Assembly (NCBI GenBank): GCA_937901475.1
Contig: CALGTL010000143.1
Location: forward strand, 1 to 32,187
From: an uncultured Dehalococcoidia bacterium
GTDB taxonomy: Bacteria; Chloroflexota; Dehalococcoidia; Lucifugimonadales; Australimonadaceae
DNA: 32,187 nucleotides
Reading direction: 5' to 3'
The position numbers and the translations under genes are program-made. Under the pieces are notes generated by a model that ran no database searches, was not told the origin of the DNA, and was given only the letters and a program-made list of their open reading frames with translations. This document shows positions 1 through 20,261 of this stretch, one piece after another. Numbering within the stretch: position 1 is the stretch's first letter; every line of letters starts with the position of its first letter.

Positions 1-714
1 CATCCCGCCAAGGTGGCCGACAAGACCAAAGCCAGTGACGTCGGTAGCTGAGTTGACGCCGACCGAGACCATCGCCTCTGACGCCGCCTTGTTGGAGGTA
101 CGCATTGCTTCAACAGCCGCTGCAATGTAGGAAAAGTCGGCAATACCCGCCTTGCCAGCAGTCGTGATAACTCCTGTGCCAATAGGTTTTGTGAGTACCA
201 ATCTGTCTCCAGCTTTAGCAGCCGCATTGGTGACGATGTCTTGCGGGGCAATGATGCCAGTGACAGCCATGCCATACTTTGGTTCGGCGTCCTTAATCGT
301 GTGCCCGCCCGCGATAAGTACTCCCGATTCTGCGGCAACATCAGACCCACCCTGTAGGATGCGTCCAAGGATTGCAATGTCGATGTCTTCGGGGAAGCAC
401 ACAATGTTCAGCGCAAGTATTGGCGTCCCCCCCATGGCATACACATCGCTGAGTGCGTTCACAGCAGCGATAGCGCCGTAGTCATAAGGATCGTCAACGA
501 TGGGCGGGAAGAAATCCAAGGTTTGAATTACGCAAAGTTCATCTGTCAGCTGATAGACGGCCGCATCATCGCCTGTCTGAAACCCCACAAGCAACTTAGG
601 GTGTTGCACGTGAGGGAGGTGGCTCAGAACCTCTCCGAGGTCCTCAGGACTGAACTTACCTGCTCAACCGGCGCATGTAGCCAGTGATGTTAAGCGGAAT
701 GTATCTTTTCGCAT
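1..714 (-). CDS. selD: Selenide, water dikinase SelD, partial (C-terminus beyond the left edge), with an in-frame TGA read as selenocysteine
   Basis: Reverse-strand frame from ATG 714..712 gives MRKDTFRLTSLATCAG(U)AGKFSPEDLGEVL...GDDAAVYQL...QTLDFFPPIVDDPYDYGAIAAVNALSDVYAMGGTPILALNIVCFPED...GGHTIKDAEPKYGMAVTGI...TKPIGTGVITT...VNSATDVTGFGLVGHLGGM. This is canonical SelD, open to position 1 apart from TGA at 666..664. Confidence 0.93.
626..644 (-). promoter_or_regulatory. Candidate bacterial SECIS hairpin downstream of the selD UGA
   Basis: Minus strand AGGACCTC-GGA-GAGGTTCT: 8-bp stem with one G-U, GGA apical loop, loop starting 27 nt after the TGA and beginning with G. Confidence 0.6.
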
Positions 715-11534: not shown

Positions 11535-13319
11535 ATGGTTGAGGAAGCGCAAGATCAAACCGCTGCTACACGAACAGTAACGCTGCGTGCTCTCCCCCTG
11601 GGAGAGGCGATTTCCGTTGGCGCGTTGGCGCAGCGCATGCAGGTTGAGTCCGTAGCCGTAATCAAGCAGTTGATGCGCGTAGGTATCTTCGCAAGCATCA
11701 ACGAAGTTATCGATTACGACACAGCAGCTGGTATCGTTCGGGCCTTCGGGTTCGCAGCTCGAAAAGCTGAAGATACCGCCTCTGCTGCAGCGGGATCGGT
11801 AGCAGAAGACGAGACCGCTGACCTCACACTACGCCCCGCTGTCGTAACCATCTTGGGGCACGTAGACCACGGCAAGACAACCCTACTAGACGCAATCCGC
11901 AGTACCAGCGTTGTCGACAACGAGGCCGGGGGCATCACGCAGCACATTGGCGCTTACCAAGTGGAGCATGATGGCCACGCAATAACTTTCATCGACACCC
12001 CTGGTCACGAGGCGTTCACTGCGATGCGAGCACGTGGTGCCCAAGTAACTGACATCGCGATTTTGGTTGTGGCTGCTGATGATGGCGTCATGCCACAAAC
12101 GGCTGAGGCTATCGACCATATCAAGGCTGCAGGGGTGCCTATTATCGTTGCCATCAACAAGATGGATTCCGATAACGCAGATGCAGAGAAGGTCCGTCGC
12201 CAGCTCTCCGAGCGCGAGCTGCTCGTTGAGAAATGGGGCGGGGATGTGATTGATGTGGAAGTCTCTGCCAAAGCTCGCACTGGCCTCGATGATCTCCTAG
12301 AAAACATACAACTCGTTGCAGAGGTCGCAGAGCTCAAGGCTAATTCGGAGCGCCCTGGAGTCGGAGTAGTCCTCGAGTGCCGTATGGACAAGAGTCGCGG
12401 AATATTAGCCACTGTGCTCGTACAAACCGGCACACTCAACGTAGGTGATCATCTCGTAGTTGGGTCTGTTCGTGGCCGTGTCAAGGCACTAGTAGACGAC
12501 AAAGGCGCGCGAGTGAAATCAGCGGGCCCTTCTACTCCTATCGAGATTCTTGGCCTCAATGACCAGCCAAGCGCTGGCGACCGCTTAGTGGTAGTTCCAG
12601 ATGAGAAAACTGCTCGGGACACAGTCGCAGAAGTTCAGCGCAGGCAAGTCATCCACAAAGCTCGCGGAACCAGCCTAGAAGAGGTCGGGTCACGCGTATC
12701 TAACGGTGAGGCAAAAGAGCTCGCGTTGGTCGTGAAAACTGATGTGAACGGGAGCATCGAAGCTGTACGCCAGGCATTGGAACAACTCAGCTCTGAGGAA
12801 ACTCAAGTTCGAATTATCCACGCTGCTACAGGCGCTATCACCGAGAGTGACGTGCTACTCGCAGTCGCCTCCAATGCAGTCATCGTCGGTTTCAACGTTG
12901 GCAGTGACCAGGGTGCACAGCGCTTGGCCGCACAAGACAGCGTTCAAATTCGCTCGTACAACATCATATATCGTCTCATTGAAGATATAGAGGCCGCTCT
13001 AAGCGGCATGCTTGAGCCCACTATGGTCGACGTTATCGAGGGCACAGCAGAGGTTCGGGCTGTTTTCAACTTACCCCGCAATCGCCAAAGCGCCGGTTGC
13101 TATGTAAACAACGGGAAAATTATTCGGGCGGCCATGGCTCGGGTTATCCGTAACGGCGAAATCATGTTCGATGGGCCAGTGGCAAACCTACGACGATTCA
13201 AAGACGATGTCCGAGAAGTAGCAACCGGCTACGAGTGTGGTCTGTCCATAGAGGGCTTCCACAGTTTCGAAGAGCAAGACGTCATCGAAATCCATCGCCA
13301 GGTCCAGACCAGCGCTTAG
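11535..13319 (+). CDS. infB: Translation initiation factor IF-2 (short N-terminus)
   Basis: IF2_N-like QRMQVESVAVIKQLMRVGIFASINEVIDYDTA; GTPase GHVDHGKTTLLD, DTPGHEAF, NKMD; IF-2 domains 2-4. Confidence 0.97.
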   Translation: MVEEAQDQTAATRTVTLRALPLGEAISVGALAQRMQVESVAVIKQLMRVGIFASINEVIDYDTAAGIVRAFGFAARKAEDTASAAAGSVAEDETADLTLRPAVVTILGHVDHGKTTLLDAIRSTSVVDNEAGGITQHIGAYQVEHDGHAITFIDTPGHEAFTAMRARGAQVTDIAILVVAADDGVMPQTAEAIDHIKAAGVPIIVAINKMDSDNADAEKVRRQLSERELLVEKWGGDVIDVEVSAKARTGLDDLLENIQLVAEVAELKANSERPGVGVVLECRMDKSRGILATVLVQTGTLNVGDHLVVGSVRGRVKALVDDKGARVKSAGPSTPIEILGLNDQPSAGDRLVVVPDEKTARDTVAEVQRRQVIHKARGTSLEEVGSRVSNGEAKELALVVKTDVNGSIEAVRQALEQLSSEETQVRIIHAATGAITESDVLLAVASNAVIVGFNVGSDQGAQRLAAQDSVQIRSYNIIYRLIEDIEAALSGMLEPTMVDVIEGTAEVRAVFNLPRNRQSAGCYVNNGKIIRAAMARVIRNGEIMFDGPVANLRRFKDDVREVATGYECGLSIEGFHSFEEQDVIEIHRQVQTSA

Positions 13320-13346
13320 CCTCGGCTCAGCCCATGGAGATATCAG

Positions 13347-13709
13347 ATGAGCCGGCGCACAGAGCAGGTTAGCGGGTTGCTGCGCGAAGAGATTAGTCGC
13401 ATGCTGCTCGAAGAAATACAGGATCCACGCCTCGGGCGATTGGTCACCATCGCACGCGTGGAGCCAAGTTCCGACCTTGAGCACGCCCTGATACGCGTAA
13501 CTGTATTTGGCGACGCGGAGGCAGCGGACAACGCACTTGCAGGCCTAGAAGCCGCAACAGGCTATCTACGCCGCAAGCTTGGCCTACGTCTCCAGCTCAG
13601 GAAGACTCCAGAACTAAAATTTGTCCTAGATGAGTCAATTCGAGAAGGAGATCGCGTGCTAGATCTACTCAACTCTCTGAGAGACCAGGAGACTCTTGAA
13701 AATGGCTAA
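13347..13709 (+). CDS. rbfA: Ribosome-binding factor A
   Basis: MSRRTEQVSGLLREEISRMLLEEIQDPRLGRLVTIARVEPSSDLEHALIRVTVFGD...LRRKLGLRLQLRKTPELKFVLDESI. Confidence 0.95.
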   Translation: MSRRTEQVSGLLREEISRMLLEEIQDPRLGRLVTIARVEPSSDLEHALIRVTVFGDAEAADNALAGLEAATGYLRRKLGLRLQLRKTPELKFVLDESIREGDRVLDLLNSLRDQETLENG

Positions 13710-14643
13710 TGGTTCTCGGCCGACGGCCGACGGCATTCTTGTGTTGAACAAGCCCAGAGATGTGACCTCCATGGAGATGGTCCGACTTGCTAAGCGTGTC
13801 AGTCACGTCAAACGTGTGGGCCATGCAGGCACTCTCGACCCCATCGCTACAGGCGTGCTCCCGGTTTGTTTCGGCCAAGCGACACGCTTGATGGAGTTCA
13901 TGGTGGATGGTCGCAAAATCTATCGCGCAGAGTTCACGTTAGGATCCGCAACCGATACCTACGACTCTTTCGGCGCTAAGACACACTCCGGTGATTGGTC
14001 CAGCATCACTAGAACAGATGTTGAGGCTCTTTTCCCTGGTTTCACGGGCGCGGTGCTGCAAACCCCTCCAATGTACAGCGCCCTCAAACATGAGGGGAAA
14101 CGCCTGTACGAGCTAGCACGGGCGGGCATTGAGGTCGAGCGCGAAAGCAGGGAAGTTATTGTCTACGAGATTAGGTTAATGGAGTTCGCCCTTCCTAAGC
14201 TCGTAATCGAGGTCGAGTGTGGCCGAGGTTTCTACATGCGCACGTTTGCCCATGATGTGGGGCTCGCGCTGGGTTGCTACGCTCATCTCACCGAGCTTCA
14301 GCGCCGCAAGGCTGGTGCATTCACAATCGAAAACACGCTCGCTCCCGATGCGTTCGAAGCAGCAGCAGATGAGGAAGCGTGGCGCGAGTTGCTACTGCCG
14401 CCTGACGCTGCATTGCAGGCGCTGGAGTCTCTAGTGTTGGATTCAGCCGCGGAGCGCCACTTGCGTAACGGGCAGACCGTTACGCTGCCGGCCTCATCCA
14501 CCTACGCCAAGCACTTGGACACTCGTCGCGCTTACACCTCAGATGGCAAGTTCCTCGCTATTGTTCGCTTCAACCGAGCAGAGAGTACCTGGCAGCCTGA
14601 GCGTGTCTTCAATCTTTCCGAGCCCTCGCGCTACGCCCCTTAG
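13702..14643 (+). CDS. truB: tRNA pseudouridine(55) synthase TruB
   Basis: GILVLNKPRDVTSMEMV, KRVGHAGTLDPIATGVLPVCFGQATR, TPPMYSALKHEGKRLYELAR, GRGFYMRTFAHDVG. Overlaps the end of rbfA. Confidence 0.95.
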   Translation: MANGSRPTADGILVLNKPRDVTSMEMVRLAKRVSHVKRVGHAGTLDPIATGVLPVCFGQATRLMEFMVDGRKIYRAEFTLGSATDTYDSFGAKTHSGDWSSITRTDVEALFPGFTGAVLQTPPMYSALKHEGKRLYELARAGIEVERESREVIVYEIRLMEFALPKLVIEVECGRGFYMRTFAHDVGLALGCYAHLTELQRRKAGAFTIENTLAPDAFEAAADEEAWRELLLPPDAALQALESLVLDSAAERHLRNGQTVTLPASSTYAKHLDTRRAYTSDGKFLAIVRFNRAESTWQPERVFNLSEPSRYAP

Positions 14644-14650
14644 GCCGGAC

Positions 14651-14691
14651 TGGGCCCCCACTTTGGGCCCGCGATTGGGTCCCAAGGCCCA
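14651..14691 (+). terminator. Hairpin terminator candidate after truB
   Basis: Nested stems TGGGCC/GGCCCA (14651-14656/14686-14691) and TTGGGCCC/GGGtCCCAA (14663-14670/14677-14685). Confidence 0.55.
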
Positions 14692-14753
14692 TGCGCCCAA
14701 GCCGCTAGTCGGTTAATCTCCATGCACACAGTTCCAAAGCACGGAGGTTTCCC

Positions 14754-15821
14754 ATGGGCAAGATCAAAGTAGCGATAGTCGGAGTAGGCAACTGCTCGTC
14801 GTCGTTCGTACAAGGACTCCACAAATATGCAGACGTAGCTGAGGATGGTTTCATCCCAGGTCTGATGCACAACAGTCTTGGCGGCTACTCCATCGGTGAT
14901 ATTGAAGTCGTCGCTGCGTTTGATATCGATAAGGAGAAGGTCGGTAAAGATGTTTCTGAGGCCATCTTCTCAGGCCAGAACAACACCGCAAAGTTCATGG
15001 ATGTCCCCCATATGGGAGTCACCGTCGAGCGTGGTATGACCCACGATGGCCTAGGTAAGTACCTGTCGCAGGTGATTGAGAAGGCCGACGGCCCCACGGC
15101 CGACATCGCTAGCATTCTTAAGGAACGCGAAGTGGATGTACTCATCAACTACTTACCTGTCGGCTCGGAGGAAGCAACTAAGTGGTACGTGGAGCAGGCG
15201 CTGCAGGCCAAGGTTGGCGTTGTCAACTGTATACCTGTTTTCATCGCCCGCGAGCCGTACTGGCAGAAACGATTCGAAGATGCTGGTGTGCCGATTGTCG
15301 GGGATGACATCAAATCTCAGGTGGGCGCAACGATTACTCATCGTGTGCTCACGAATTTGTTTAAGAACCGCGGAGTGAAGATTGAACGTACGTACCAGTT
15401 GAACTTCGGTGGCAACACCGACTTCATGAACATGCTTGAACGCGAACGCTTGGAATCTAAGAAGGAGTCCAAGACCAACGCAGTCATCTCTCAACTCCCC
15501 TACGACATCGGCGCAAAGAACGTCCATGTCGGACCTTCGGATTACGTGCCTTGGTTAGAGGATCGAAAGTGGTGCCACATCCGTATCGAAGGACGGACCT
15601 TCGGTGATGTTCCCTTGAACATGGAGCTCAAGCTCGAAGTTTGGGACAGCCCCAACTCAGCTGGCGTCGTTGTTGACGCTGTCCGCTGTGTAAAGCTTGG
15701 ACTCGATCGTGGTATCTCCGGCCAGTTGGATGGTCCCAGTTCATACTTCATGAAGTCCCCTTTCCACCAGCACTCGGACGACATTGCCTACGAGTTGGTG
15801 GAGGAGTTCTCCAAGGGGTAA
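14754..15821 (+). CDS. ino1: myo-Inositol-1-phosphate synthase
   Basis: [73 protein letters not shown]. Confidence 0.93.
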
Positions 15822-15959
15822 TACTTACATTCTGAGCACGTGTTCCCCAAGGAGGAGCACGTGCTTGAAAGCGCTTCTAGTTCGTGCCGTATTTACGTAT
15901 CGTAAGACCCGCGCTGGTTGTTTGTTCACGCAGCTAGTCAAATCTTTAGGGGAGGCCTC

Positions 15960-17153
15960 GTGGCGGAGTCAGTCACGGCACCGAAACCACTGCAAACTGC
16001 AGCTGGCAAACGTCAGCTAAAAGTCGCCCTCGTGTCACCGTACGATTACGGTGCCCCTGGCGGGGTCAATGACCATGTCACCAATCTGGCGACACAGCTC
16101 CGCAAGAAGGGCCACATCGTCAAGGTAATCGCCCCCATCGCCGATGCGAGTCACCAAGACCTCGGACCCGATTTCATCCCCATGGGACGACCTGTTCCTA
16201 TCCCTAGTGGGGGTGCCGTTGCCCGTGTCTCAGTATCCGTTTGGCTAGAACCGCGCGTAAAGGAATTGCTCGAGCAGGAAAATTTTGACATTGTCCATTT
16301 GCACGAGCCCCTCGCTCCCGCGCTTCCGCTTACTGTGTTGCACTCCTCGACTGCCATCAATATAGGCACTTTTCACTCATTCAAAGGCACTCGCTTCTAC
16401 CGGGTCTGGCGCTACGTAAGTCGACGTTGGTTCAAAAAGCTAGACGGGCTCATAGCGGTATCAGCACCTGCCCGGGACTTCGTGTCGAAGTTTTACCCCG
16501 GCGAGTACGAGATTATCCCAAACGGCGTGGATGTCGACCGTTTCACCACGCCACTCCCACCCATCGAGAAATTCAAGGATGGGAAGATCAATATCTTGTT
16601 CTTAGGGCGCATGGAGCGTCGCAAGGGCTTAAAGTACCTATTGATGGCTTATAGCCGACTCAAGTGGCGATACCCGAACATCCGGTTGATTGTTGTCGGT
16701 GCAGGGAACCCCGGGGAAGAGGTACTCACGCTGATCAGCGAGCGTAACCTCACCGATGTGGAGCTCGTGGGCCCAGTGCCTTACGAAGACCTCCCGCGCT
16801 ACTACCAAACCGCTGATATCTTCTGCGCACCTAATACCGGGCGAGAGAGCTTTGGCATCGTACTTGTTGAAGCCATGGCAGCAAGCAAACCGATTGTAGC
16901 CACTCGTATCGACGGCTTTAGTAAAGTTCTCTCCAACGGCGTCGAAGGGCTTTTGGTCCGGCCCAAAGACGACGCGGAGTTGGCTTTCGGGCTGGAGCGA
17001 TTAATCAAAGACGCGGACATGCGTCGTGAGATGGGCGCTCGCGGTCGTATCACGGTTGAGCAATATCGCTGGGATGTAATCGCAGATCGCGTGCTCAATT
17101 ACTACGAGACCATAATGTGGCGTAAAGGGCGCCTTGAGGAGCAAATCGCGTGA
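15960..17153 (+). CDS. GT4-family glycosyltransferase (PimA/PimC-like)
   Basis: [98 protein letters not shown] 15960 preceded by aggggagg. Confidence 0.88.
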
Positions 17154-17758
17154 GTAAGTTTAAAGATGAATTCGTCCCGCTGAGAATTCGAGCTAAGGGA
17201 TGGGCAACCCGCTACTTTAGCGGCCCGATTGCGCGGGGACTTGTCGCGCTCCACATCTCTGCAAACGCCATCACTATCGCAGGTTTCTTTGTCGCAGTAG
17301 GAGCAGCTTACTTGTTATCTCAGGGTGAGTTGGTCATCGGCGGCATCGTCATGCTGGCCGGTGCCATCATGGATATGTTCGATGGAGCGGTTGCTCGCAT
17401 CACCGGTAAGGCATCGACGTTTGGAGCCTTCCTTGACTCAGTTCTTGACCGCTTAGGTGAAGCTGCGGTGCTGTTCGGTCTGCTCGTCTTCTACATTCGC
17501 GAAGGCAATGAATTGGGCGCATTTCTCGCGTTCGGCACCGCCGTGCTATCAATTATGGTTAGCTATTCACGAGCTAGGGCCGAAGGGCTCAGCGTGCAAG
17601 GCGACGTAGGTTTGATGGGAAGACCTGAGCGCATCATCGTGATGGGCATCGGCCTGCTCTCGAAGTACCCGCAATACGCGATGGGCGTCATCATGGCGGT
17701 CTCAGCCATAACCATCACGCAGCGGGCAGCCCATGTTTGGCGCAACGCAGATCACTAG
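17150..17758 (+). CDS. CDP-alcohol phosphatidyltransferase (phosphatidylinositol-phosphate synthase-like)
   Basis: CDP-OH-PT motif [27 protein letters not shown] fits D-G-x2-A-R-x8-G-x3-D-x3-D; multiple TM helices; GTG start overlaps the upstream stop. Confidence 0.92.
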
Positions 17759-17881
17759 CATCTAGGTGCACACGTTGAATCATTGCCCGTAGAATACATT
17801 TAACATCCCTAACACTCTACCGCTAATTCCCTCAGCGACAGAGCGACAACGACCACTAGTATGACCATCCCGGAGATAAGA

Positions 17882-18637
17882 ATGGCCCTTCTCAGCGAAG
17901 ACGACCGAAAGGTCCTCACAGAAAGATTCCGAGAAACACTAGAGAAAGACGTCAAAGTCAGGCTCTTCACCCAGTCAGATGCTCGAGGGCTTTTGCTCCT
18001 TCCAGGGCAAGAGCAGGCGCCTAGCAACGAGTCCATGAAGATGACTCGCGAATTGATGGAAGAGCTCATTGGCATGTCTCCCAAGCTAAGTCTCGAAGTT
18101 TTCGATGCTTTCAACGAGGGTGCTGATGAAGCTAAACGCCTACAGATAGAGCAAATCCCTGCGATCATCCTAGGTGATGATGATGAGGGCAGGATTCGTT
18201 TCTATGGTGCGCCAGTCGGCAACGAATTCCCGACCATTCTTACGGGGATCGAGGCCTTGTCCAAGGGCGGCCCTATGTTGAGGGGCGCAGTGGCGGATGC
18301 GGCACGTAATCTCATCGACCAACAGGTGCACCTGAGAGTGTTCGTCACCCCTACCTGACCGCACTGCCCTCGTGTGGCCCGTGCGGCCCACGCAATCGCA
18401 ATGGCGAACTCCAATGTCAAGGCAGAGGTCGTTGAGTGCCAGGAGTTCCCTGAAATGGCTCAGGCCTTTCAGGTGTCTGGTGTACCGAAGACTGTGATTA
18501 ACGATAGTGCTGAATTCGTTGGTGCTATTCCTGACGAGCTATTCATCAATGCAATTCTTCAAGCCATCGGTAAGGAAGAGGTTGACTGGGCGGCCGAGGA
18601 AGAGGATGACGCAGAGAAGCCCTCGTCCATCAGTTAA
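17882..18637 (+). CDS. Protein disulfide oxidoreductase (PDO, two thioredoxin folds), predicted selenoprotein with UPHC active site; TGA 18356-18358 read as Sec
   Basis: In-frame join of track ORFs 17861..18358 and 18374..18637: ...IEQIPAIILGDDDEGRIRFYGAPVGNEFPTILTGIEALSKGGP...QVHLRVFVTPT(U)PHCPRVARAAHAIAMANSNVKAEVVECQEFPEMAQAFQVSGVPKTVINDSAEFVGAIPDELFINAILQAIG. ATG 17882 preceded by GGAG. Confidence 0.88.
18372..18393 (+). promoter_or_regulatory. Candidate bacterial SECIS hairpin downstream of the PDO UGA
   Basis: GTGTGGCC-CGTGC-GGCCCACGC: 8 bp with one bulged C and one G-U; loop starts after 21 nt from the TGA, with G at the second loop position. Confidence 0.55.
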
Positions 18638-18662: not shown

Positions 18663-18694
18663 AAAGCGCCCCGGTTGATTAACCAGGGCGCTTT
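18663..18694. terminator. Bidirectional terminator between the convergent PDO and Rieske genes
   Basis: AAAGCGCCC...GGGCGCTTT 9-bp stem, one mismatch, inner GGTT/AACC, loop gatt. Confidence 0.8.
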
Positions 18695-19986
18695 GGCATT
18701 GCTATGTTCGTCACAGCCGTGGGGTCCGTAGGTTTAGCATCTTTCCACGTAGCGATAACTTCGTTAATAATGGCGATTGCGTCCTCGGGTTCTCCATGCT
18801 GAAAGGAAATGTGTGTAGTGTTCTGCGCACCGGGACCAACAGCGATGGTCCCGAAGAAATCATGTACCGGCAAAGGAAGTGATACGTTGGTCGCCGGGTC
18901 GCGCACGATACACATCGGGTCTTTGTTTTCCGCAACAAGCGCTGCTTGCTCTTTCAACATCCGACGCAGAAGGATTACTCCTGTGTCGCTCTCACCCAGA
19001 GTTTCCTTAGTGCGGTCGACAACCCTCCCCTGACCTATCCACGCAACGATGTCTTGGTTGACCACGTGGCTCGTCCGAAGCAGGCCTTTCTCGTCGTACA
19101 TTGCACCGTACCAATAGGGAATGCTCGATTGATGCGGCGGCTCATGGCCAGGCGCCACGCGGTTGAGGAACCACATAACACTAAGGGTGTTCTCGTCGTC
19201 GATAGGCACACGCCACTCGAAGTGGCAAGAATACGTATGCCCTATGAACAACGCGTAGGGGAACAGGCAAACCCGTCCCCTAACCCAGTTTTCATCCTCT
19301 TCGCTCGAACCCTGCACCACTCGCCGGTAGATCATTCCGTAGTCGAATGGGTCAGCACCGATTTTGAGGTGAGGAGGGGGTTTCCCAAATACAGTGTCTA
19401 CATTTAGCTGCTGTGCCCAGTAGGCATGGAGCCACTCCACATGCACGGGGTCGATCGAATTCTCCTGCGCTTGGAACCAATTGCAGGGCAAAAGGGTGAT
19501 GCATATATCCACAAATCCGTCATCGTGCATAAACGGAGACCAGTTCGGAACCAGAGGCGCAGGCTGTGGCCCCAGGTACGCCCAAAGTAAACCAGCCTTG
19601 GGCTCCACGGGGTAACCCACGACCTTCACCTTCTCTTTGAATCTTCCTTCAGGGCGTACCGTTTCCTCGAACGGTTGCTCAATACATTGGCCTGTCTTAT
19701 CAAACATCCATCCGTGATACATACAACGGAGGCCGTTTTCTTCGGGGATTCCATAGCTCAAATCCACCCGGCGATGCGGGCAAAAGCGGCCGAGCAAACC
19801 ATAAGCCCCTGAACGGTCGCGATATAGCACTAAATCTTCGCCAAGCAAACGAACAGCCTTGGTAGGGCGCTCGTCCAACTCAGCAACCGGCGCAATCGGG
19901 TGCCAATGTCTGCGCAAGTACTCACCCATGGGAGTGCCTGAGCTAACCTCAGTAAAGAATTTGTTTTCGGCTTCCGTAAGCATCAT
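18679..19986 (-). CDS. Rieske [2Fe-2S] aromatic ring-hydroxylating oxygenase-like protein
   Basis: CPHRRVDLSYGIPEENGLRCMYHGW Rieske motif (CxH...CxxH); mononuclear iron-site-like QENSIDPVHVEWLH. Start assigned to MMLTEAENKF (aggaggg just upstream); the 20229 track start runs into the tRNA. Confidence 0.9.
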   Translation of the reverse strand: MMLTEAENKFFTEVSSGTPMGEYLRRHWHPIAPVAELDERPTKAVRLLGEDLVLYRDRSGAYGLLGRFCPHRRVDLSYGIPEENGLRCMYHGWMFDKTGQCIEQPFEETVRPEGRFKEKVKVVGYPVEPKAGLLWAYLGPQPAPLVPNWSPFMHDDGFVDICITLLPCNWFQAQENSIDPVHVEWLHAYWAQQLNVDTVFGKPPPHLKIGADPFDYGMIYRRVVQGSSEEDENWVRGRVCLFPYALFIGHTYSCHFEWRVPIDDENTLSVMWFLNRVAPGHEPPHQSSIPYWYGAMYDEKGLLRTSHVVNQDIVAWIGQGRVVDRTKETLGESDTGVILLRRMLKEQAALVAENKDPMCIVRDPATNVSLPLPVHDFFGTIAVGPGAQNTTHISFQHGEPEDAIAIINEVIATWKDAKPTDPTAVTNIAMPKRPG

Positions 19987-20137
19987 CCCTCCTGCGCGAG
20001 AATGGCCATTATCAGGATAGGCATGGGCACGAACAAGCCTCTCAGCCGGTGATACGTGGCAAATAGAGTAGACGACATCTTTGCTTTGAGTGCGCCTGGA
20101 GGCAACGAGATGTATTGATTCGGGAGTCATAGCAAAC

Positions 20138-20170
20138 AAAAAAGCCCTCGTCGCGAGGACGAGAGCTTTT
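20138..20170 (-). terminator. Intrinsic terminator of tRNA-Pro
   Basis: Minus strand AAAAGCtCTCGTCctcgcGACGAGgGCTTTTTT: GC-rich stem with terminal T-run. Confidence 0.75.
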
Positions 20171-20184
20171 AAACTGCTAAAAAA

Positions 20185-20261
20185 TGGTCGGGGTGATTGG
20201 ATTCGAACCAACGGCCTCCTGCACCCCATGCAGGCGCGCTACCGGGCTGCGCCACACCCCG
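20185..20261 (-). tRNA. tRNA-Pro (anticodon GGG)
   Basis: Minus strand CGGGGTGTGGCGCAGCCCGGTAGCGCGCCTGCATGGGGTGCAGGAGGCCGTTGGTTCGAATCCAATCACCCCGACCA: cloverleaf with acceptor CGGGGTG/CACCCCG, anticodon stem CCTGC/GCAGG, loop ATGGGGT, GGTTCGAATCC T-arm, encoded CCA. Confidence 0.96.

Follow-up and report, generated by a model that had tools for sequence, protein, structure and literature searches.

The window, by which we mean the whole stretch of 32,187 nucleotides that was analysed, belongs to the draft genome of an uncultured Chloroflexota bacterium (2.31 Mb in 208 contigs, 97% complete) and harbours a gene for a protein disulfide oxidoreductase (PDO) that the ORF caller had cut in two. The open reading frames 17861-18358 and 18374-18637 share one frame, and the sole stop codon between them is the TGA at 18356-18358; the joined translation reads ...VFVTPT-U-PHCPRVARAAHAIAM... 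and ends at a TAA codon (18635-18637). The initial annotation had taken the two frames for one hidden selenoprotein, and this reading was borne out by the selenocysteine (Sec) machinery in the genome, the same TGA in independent assemblies and a SECIS-type hairpin after the UGA. Very probably, the locus encodes a PDO of two thioredoxin (Trx) folds, in which UGA is decoded as Sec by SelA, SelB, tRNA-Sec and SelD via the downstream hairpin, and which would function as a single-site redox carrier, most likely reduced by TrxB. The reading frame, the two-sided homology, the aligned Cys/Sec pair, the Sec machinery and the conserved SECIS-like element were all computed. The features are listed in Table 1.

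Table 1. Features of the window discussed in the text, with strand and basis of assignment.
Feature	Position	Strand	Basis or remark
Sec-containing PDO (TIGR02187)	17882..18637, including stop codon	+	251 aa, two tandem thioredoxin folds, Sec = residue 159
In-frame TGA as selenocysteine, U159 of UPHC	18356..18358	+	aligned codon census
N-terminal thioredoxin-fold stretch (residues 25-48), CxxC lost	17954..18025	+	alignment
Predicted bacterial SECIS hairpin, CGUG-u-GGCC-[CGUGC]-GGCC-CACG	18371..18392	+	isolated-element fold and comparative test
selD, 5' portion, truncated by the contig end; likewise a Sec form, with TGA 664-666 within CAGUAGK	1..711	-	
GT4 glycosyltransferase and CDP-alcohol phosphatidyltransferase (inositol-lipid type)	15918..17758	+	syntenic genes upstream of the PDO gene

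Gene, neighbourhood and family

The true start of the gene is most likely the ATG at 17882, because the N-terminus is conserved in relatives (MALLSEDD or MALLAEDD, within MALL(S/A)EDDRK) and a GGAG motif is situated just upstream. From this start the coding span without stop codon covers 17882-18634 and the TGA becomes residue 159, the number given previously, while the GTG at 18374, the called 'start' of the second frame, is internal to the gene. The gene follows a family-conserved block of IF2, TruB, INO1, GT4 and CDP-alcohol phosphatidyltransferase genes (11535-17758). On its other side, a 516-aa frame on the minus strand (18679-20229) comprises a Rieske domain and a LigXa C-terminal-like domain; since this frame, as called, overlaps a tRNA gene (20188-20261), its true start probably lies further in.

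The gene order GT4-CDP-alcohol phosphatidyltransferase-PDO is shared across the family and with many further members of the order, in Sec and Cys forms alike, so that the PDO could be a genuine Sec protein with a role in the adjacent inositol-lipid pathway, e.g. in redox control of its enzymes, and not a general TrxB-linked reductase. We consider such a role improbable: no redox step is known in those pathways, and the linkage may merely mirror a conserved housekeeping block (IF2-TruB-INO1-GT4-PT-PDO-prfB). The synteny suggests a link with inositol-lipid genes and offers no redox partner.

The general, TrxB-linked PDO that we favour is a clear member of NCBIfam TIGR02187, which matches residues 13-235 of the 258-aa translation that starts at 17861 with 204.1 bits (cut-off 185; model positions 2-209 of 209), and it is the only copy of this family in its genome. 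One match runs over both halves and across the TGA, in agreement with the earlier claims that a single gene had been split and that homology continues on both sides. The (C/U)xxC of the C-domain is present as UPHC (residues 159-162), and the second Cys of the motif is indeed kept. Pfam Thioredoxin_3 on the C-domain likewise spans the TGA, and PF00462 (Glutaredoxin) falls below its gathering score (22.2 vs 22.9). An AlphaFold2 model (48 rows, i.e. the loci and the window) displays two Trx folds at a mean pLDDT of 94; its best PDB matches are PDOs of Aquifex, Pyrococcus and Aeropyrum, with 2ayt, 1j08 and 1a8l among them, followed by the AhpF N-terminal domains 5h29 and 1zyn.

The UGA codon and its downstream hairpin

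Classification of 132 homologues at the catalytic codon yielded 46 with TGA, 56 with TGC and 30 with TGT. The 86 Cys forms have their Cys at the aligned position, and the TGA stands for the N-terminal catalytic Cys of CxxC, as the initial annotation had proposed. The 46 TGA loci correspond to 44 distinct genes (two loci are the same records), 43 of which belong to the window's order. Within its GTDB family the TIGR02187 gene exceeds the cut-off in 5 of 16 genomes, each time with exactly one TGA at the same codon; the other 11 are devoid of it, so the gene is not essential to the lineage. In the order as a whole, a match above the cut-off was obtained for 57 of 197 genomes, in most cases with one TGA, and the same TGA recurs in independent assemblies. 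A quick tree requires 10 changes between Sec and Cys, at least four of them forced by well-supported branches, so repeated exchange of the two residues in this family is likely. Six loci from other members of the order encode TIGR02187-type proteins whose catalytic Cys/Sec position is occupied by Asp or Ser (e.g. TPTDTFCP, TPGSEVSAG), and one Cys-form PDO gene (G069:C1:7695-8327) has an in-frame TAG within the match, which probably reflects damage to the gene or an artefact of the frame.

The genome of the window encodes SelA (506 bits), SelB (354 bits), SelD (306 bits) and a tRNA-Sec (71 bits with Infernal, confirmed by ARAGORN, anticodon TCA), i.e. selA, selB and selC are all present, and selD does lie in the window, as had been noted, at its left edge. 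The rest of selD corresponds to the terminal part of contig C66 (20077-20259); this contig therefore probably precedes that of the window, which would put trxB (C66:12335-13231) in the same neighbourhood. The presence of SelA (over the cut-off in 25 of 28 genomes with a Sec-PDO vs 12 of 16 with a Cys or other PDO) does not separate the two groups; it is compatible with the Sec reading and adds little to it. The same genome holds 13 AhpC-TSA (PF00578) matches, six of which contain a single in-frame TGA (contigs C120, C128, C11, C104, C26 and C112) in contexts such as DFTKGUTIES and RWUPFCRTQ, and these TGA-bearing matches suggest a Sec-rich thiol proteome.

Decoding of the UGA would be steered by the hairpin just 3' of it. 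The stem of this element consists of eight base pairs, all Watson-Crick, with a single 1-nt bulge, and its apical loop (CGUGC, 18380-18384) starts 21 nt past the UGA, with G and U as its second and third nucleotides. The bacterial SECIS model calls for a loop of 3-9 nt with G in the first two positions, 16-37 nt after the UGA, on a stem of 4-16 bp (PMC13188914), and the hairpin agrees with it in every respect. Folding of the 56-nt stretch gives a different minimum free energy (MFE) structure, a CCGCAC/GUGCGG hairpin adjoining the UGA that is not unusually stable (z -0.33), and the identification of the SECIS element is therefore based on comparison, not on the stability of a single sequence.

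Constraint on the RNA was separated from constraint on the protein by reshuffling synonymous codons within each gene. Among the 44 Sec genes, 239 of 264 stem pairs can form vs 199 +/- 4.8 in the shuffles (maximum 212), the loop begins with the G[G/U] signal in 43 genes vs 20.3 +/- 3.1, and the summed MFE amounts to -435 vs -336 +/- 17. All three values lie outside every shuffle; the sequences share ancestry and do not constitute independent samples, for which the Cys genes are the fitting control. In the 86 Cys genes the loop signal (25 of 86 vs 28 +/- 3) and the MFE (-467 vs -449 +/- 21) are at the null, with a small excess of pairing (343 vs 322 +/- 6.7) that is perhaps a remnant. Moreover, 10 of 12 codons for invariant amino acids just after the UGA are identical within the window's family, vs 13 of 36 and 11 of 36 on the two flanks. 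The hairpin is thus SECIS-like, and its conservation exceeds that expected from the choice of synonymous codons.

These comparisons also bear on the alternative that the UGA is an authentic stop, which separates a truncated N-domain protein from a separately started C-domain (ORF 18374-18637). Two ORFs do exist in a mechanical sense, and a degree of termination is to be expected at Sec UGAs, yet the second ORF would begin inside the active-site helix, beyond both U and the resolving Cys, the N-domain by itself would be without a catalytic Cys, and the TGA recurs only where homologues carry Cys and is followed by SECIS constraint; we regard this alternative as very unlikely. A negligible chance is left for a broken TGC/TGT codon, i.e. 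a pseudogene or a sequencing or assembly error, as a lone TGA splitting a gene in a draft genome of many contigs might suggest, given that the same codon is TGA in five genomes of the family and many members of the order from separate assemblies (the recurrence at 46 of 132 loci by itself rules such a reading out), that the protein is conserved on either side of it, with mainly synonymous differences from a same-genus relative, and that the SECIS signal is found in Sec forms and absent from Cys forms.

A single redox site and its possible partners

The Sec-containing PDO of the window displays a further feature, on which the initial annotation was silent. Where its relatives have PGRECxxC in the first fold, the window protein reads PGQEQAPSN, and no Cys is left in that fold. 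The N-domain CxxC is kept in 39 of the 44 distinct Sec genes and in 84 of the 86 Cys homologues; the five Sec genes without it are exactly those of the window's family, which form a fully supported clade on a long stem in the quick tree. Owing to this loss, the clade has a single-site Sec PDO that resembles the AhpF N-terminal domain. A more tentative scenario, which we consider possible at best, is that the clade turned a two-site PDO into a one-site selenoenzyme by losing the N-terminal centre after Sec had taken the C-terminal one, and that the product now stands alone as a Sec counterpart of the AhpF N-terminal domain, devoted to supplying electrons to the clade's partly Sec-containing peroxiredoxins. 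In a non-exhaustive search of the literature, we found no description of N-domain site loss in a Sec PDO.

Following incorporation of Sec by SelA, SelB, tRNA-Sec and SelD, Sec159 would attack substrate disulfides or accept electrons, in a selenenylsulfide cycle with Cys162, and without an N-domain CxxC the protein would operate as a carrier with one redox site, like the AhpF N-terminal domain. In Sulfolobus, PDO is supplied with electrons by thioredoxin reductase and returns peroxiredoxin to its reduced form (PMC7278568). Because of this relay, and because the window's own genome possesses a full-length trxB and several peroxiredoxin-family genes, we infer that the Sec-PDO is most likely reduced by TrxB, and, with somewhat better than even probability, that it hands electrons on to the disulfides of peroxiredoxin-type or other proteins.

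Comparison with known Sec-PDO, PDO and AhpF proteins

The family itself is not new, and the locus is a further member of it in uncultured Chloroflexota. Sec forms of PDO have been catalogued since the mid-2000s (PMC1794560, PMC9312934, PMC13188914), with Carboxydothermus and Symbiobacterium in the census of 2006, and the short name of TIGR02187.2 in NCBIfam is 'PDO_seleno_TRX'. The catalogued proteins (e.g. ABB15282.1) share with that of the window the NCBIfam family, UxxC in a PDO-like protein and bacterial Sec decoding; they derive, however, from Carboxydothermus, Symbiobacterium or Asgard archaea, whereas the lineage of the window is an uncultured one of Chloroflexota, in whose clade the N-domain CxxC is absent. 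In a large uncultured order of Chloroflexota, the Sec form, known from a handful of cultured anaerobes, is the common form of this PDO. ORF callers split the gene there, and annotation should apply TIGR02187 across the TGA. In addition, the syntenic Sec and Cys orthologues, together with a clade that has dispensed with the second site, provide a natural test case for the way in which Sec alters a two-site redoxin.

Like the PDOs of Pyrococcus furiosus (1a8l) and Aquifex aeolicus (2ayt), the window protein consists from end to end of two tandem Trx folds (~230 aa, TMq ~0.8), and their FVTPTCPYCP region aligns with its Sec site; they have Cys in the C-domain where it has Sec, and the classical P. 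furiosus PDO possesses two CxxC, one per Trx fold (CQYC in the N-domain), the first of which the window protein lacks. The N-terminal extension of AhpF likewise consists of tandem Trx-like folds with one Cys pair, which passes electrons from the TrxR-like domain to AhpC (PMC8945050). Like this domain (1zyn, 5h29), the window protein carries one redox pair, in the second of two Trx folds, although its sequence match to AhpF is much weaker than that to PDO and Sec is present in place of one partner of the Cys pair. Whereas AhpF is fused to a TrxR-like flavin domain, the domain search detected no pyridine nucleotide-disulfide domain (the C-terminal FAD/TrxR-like part of AhpF) in the 251 aa of the window protein, which is free-standing.
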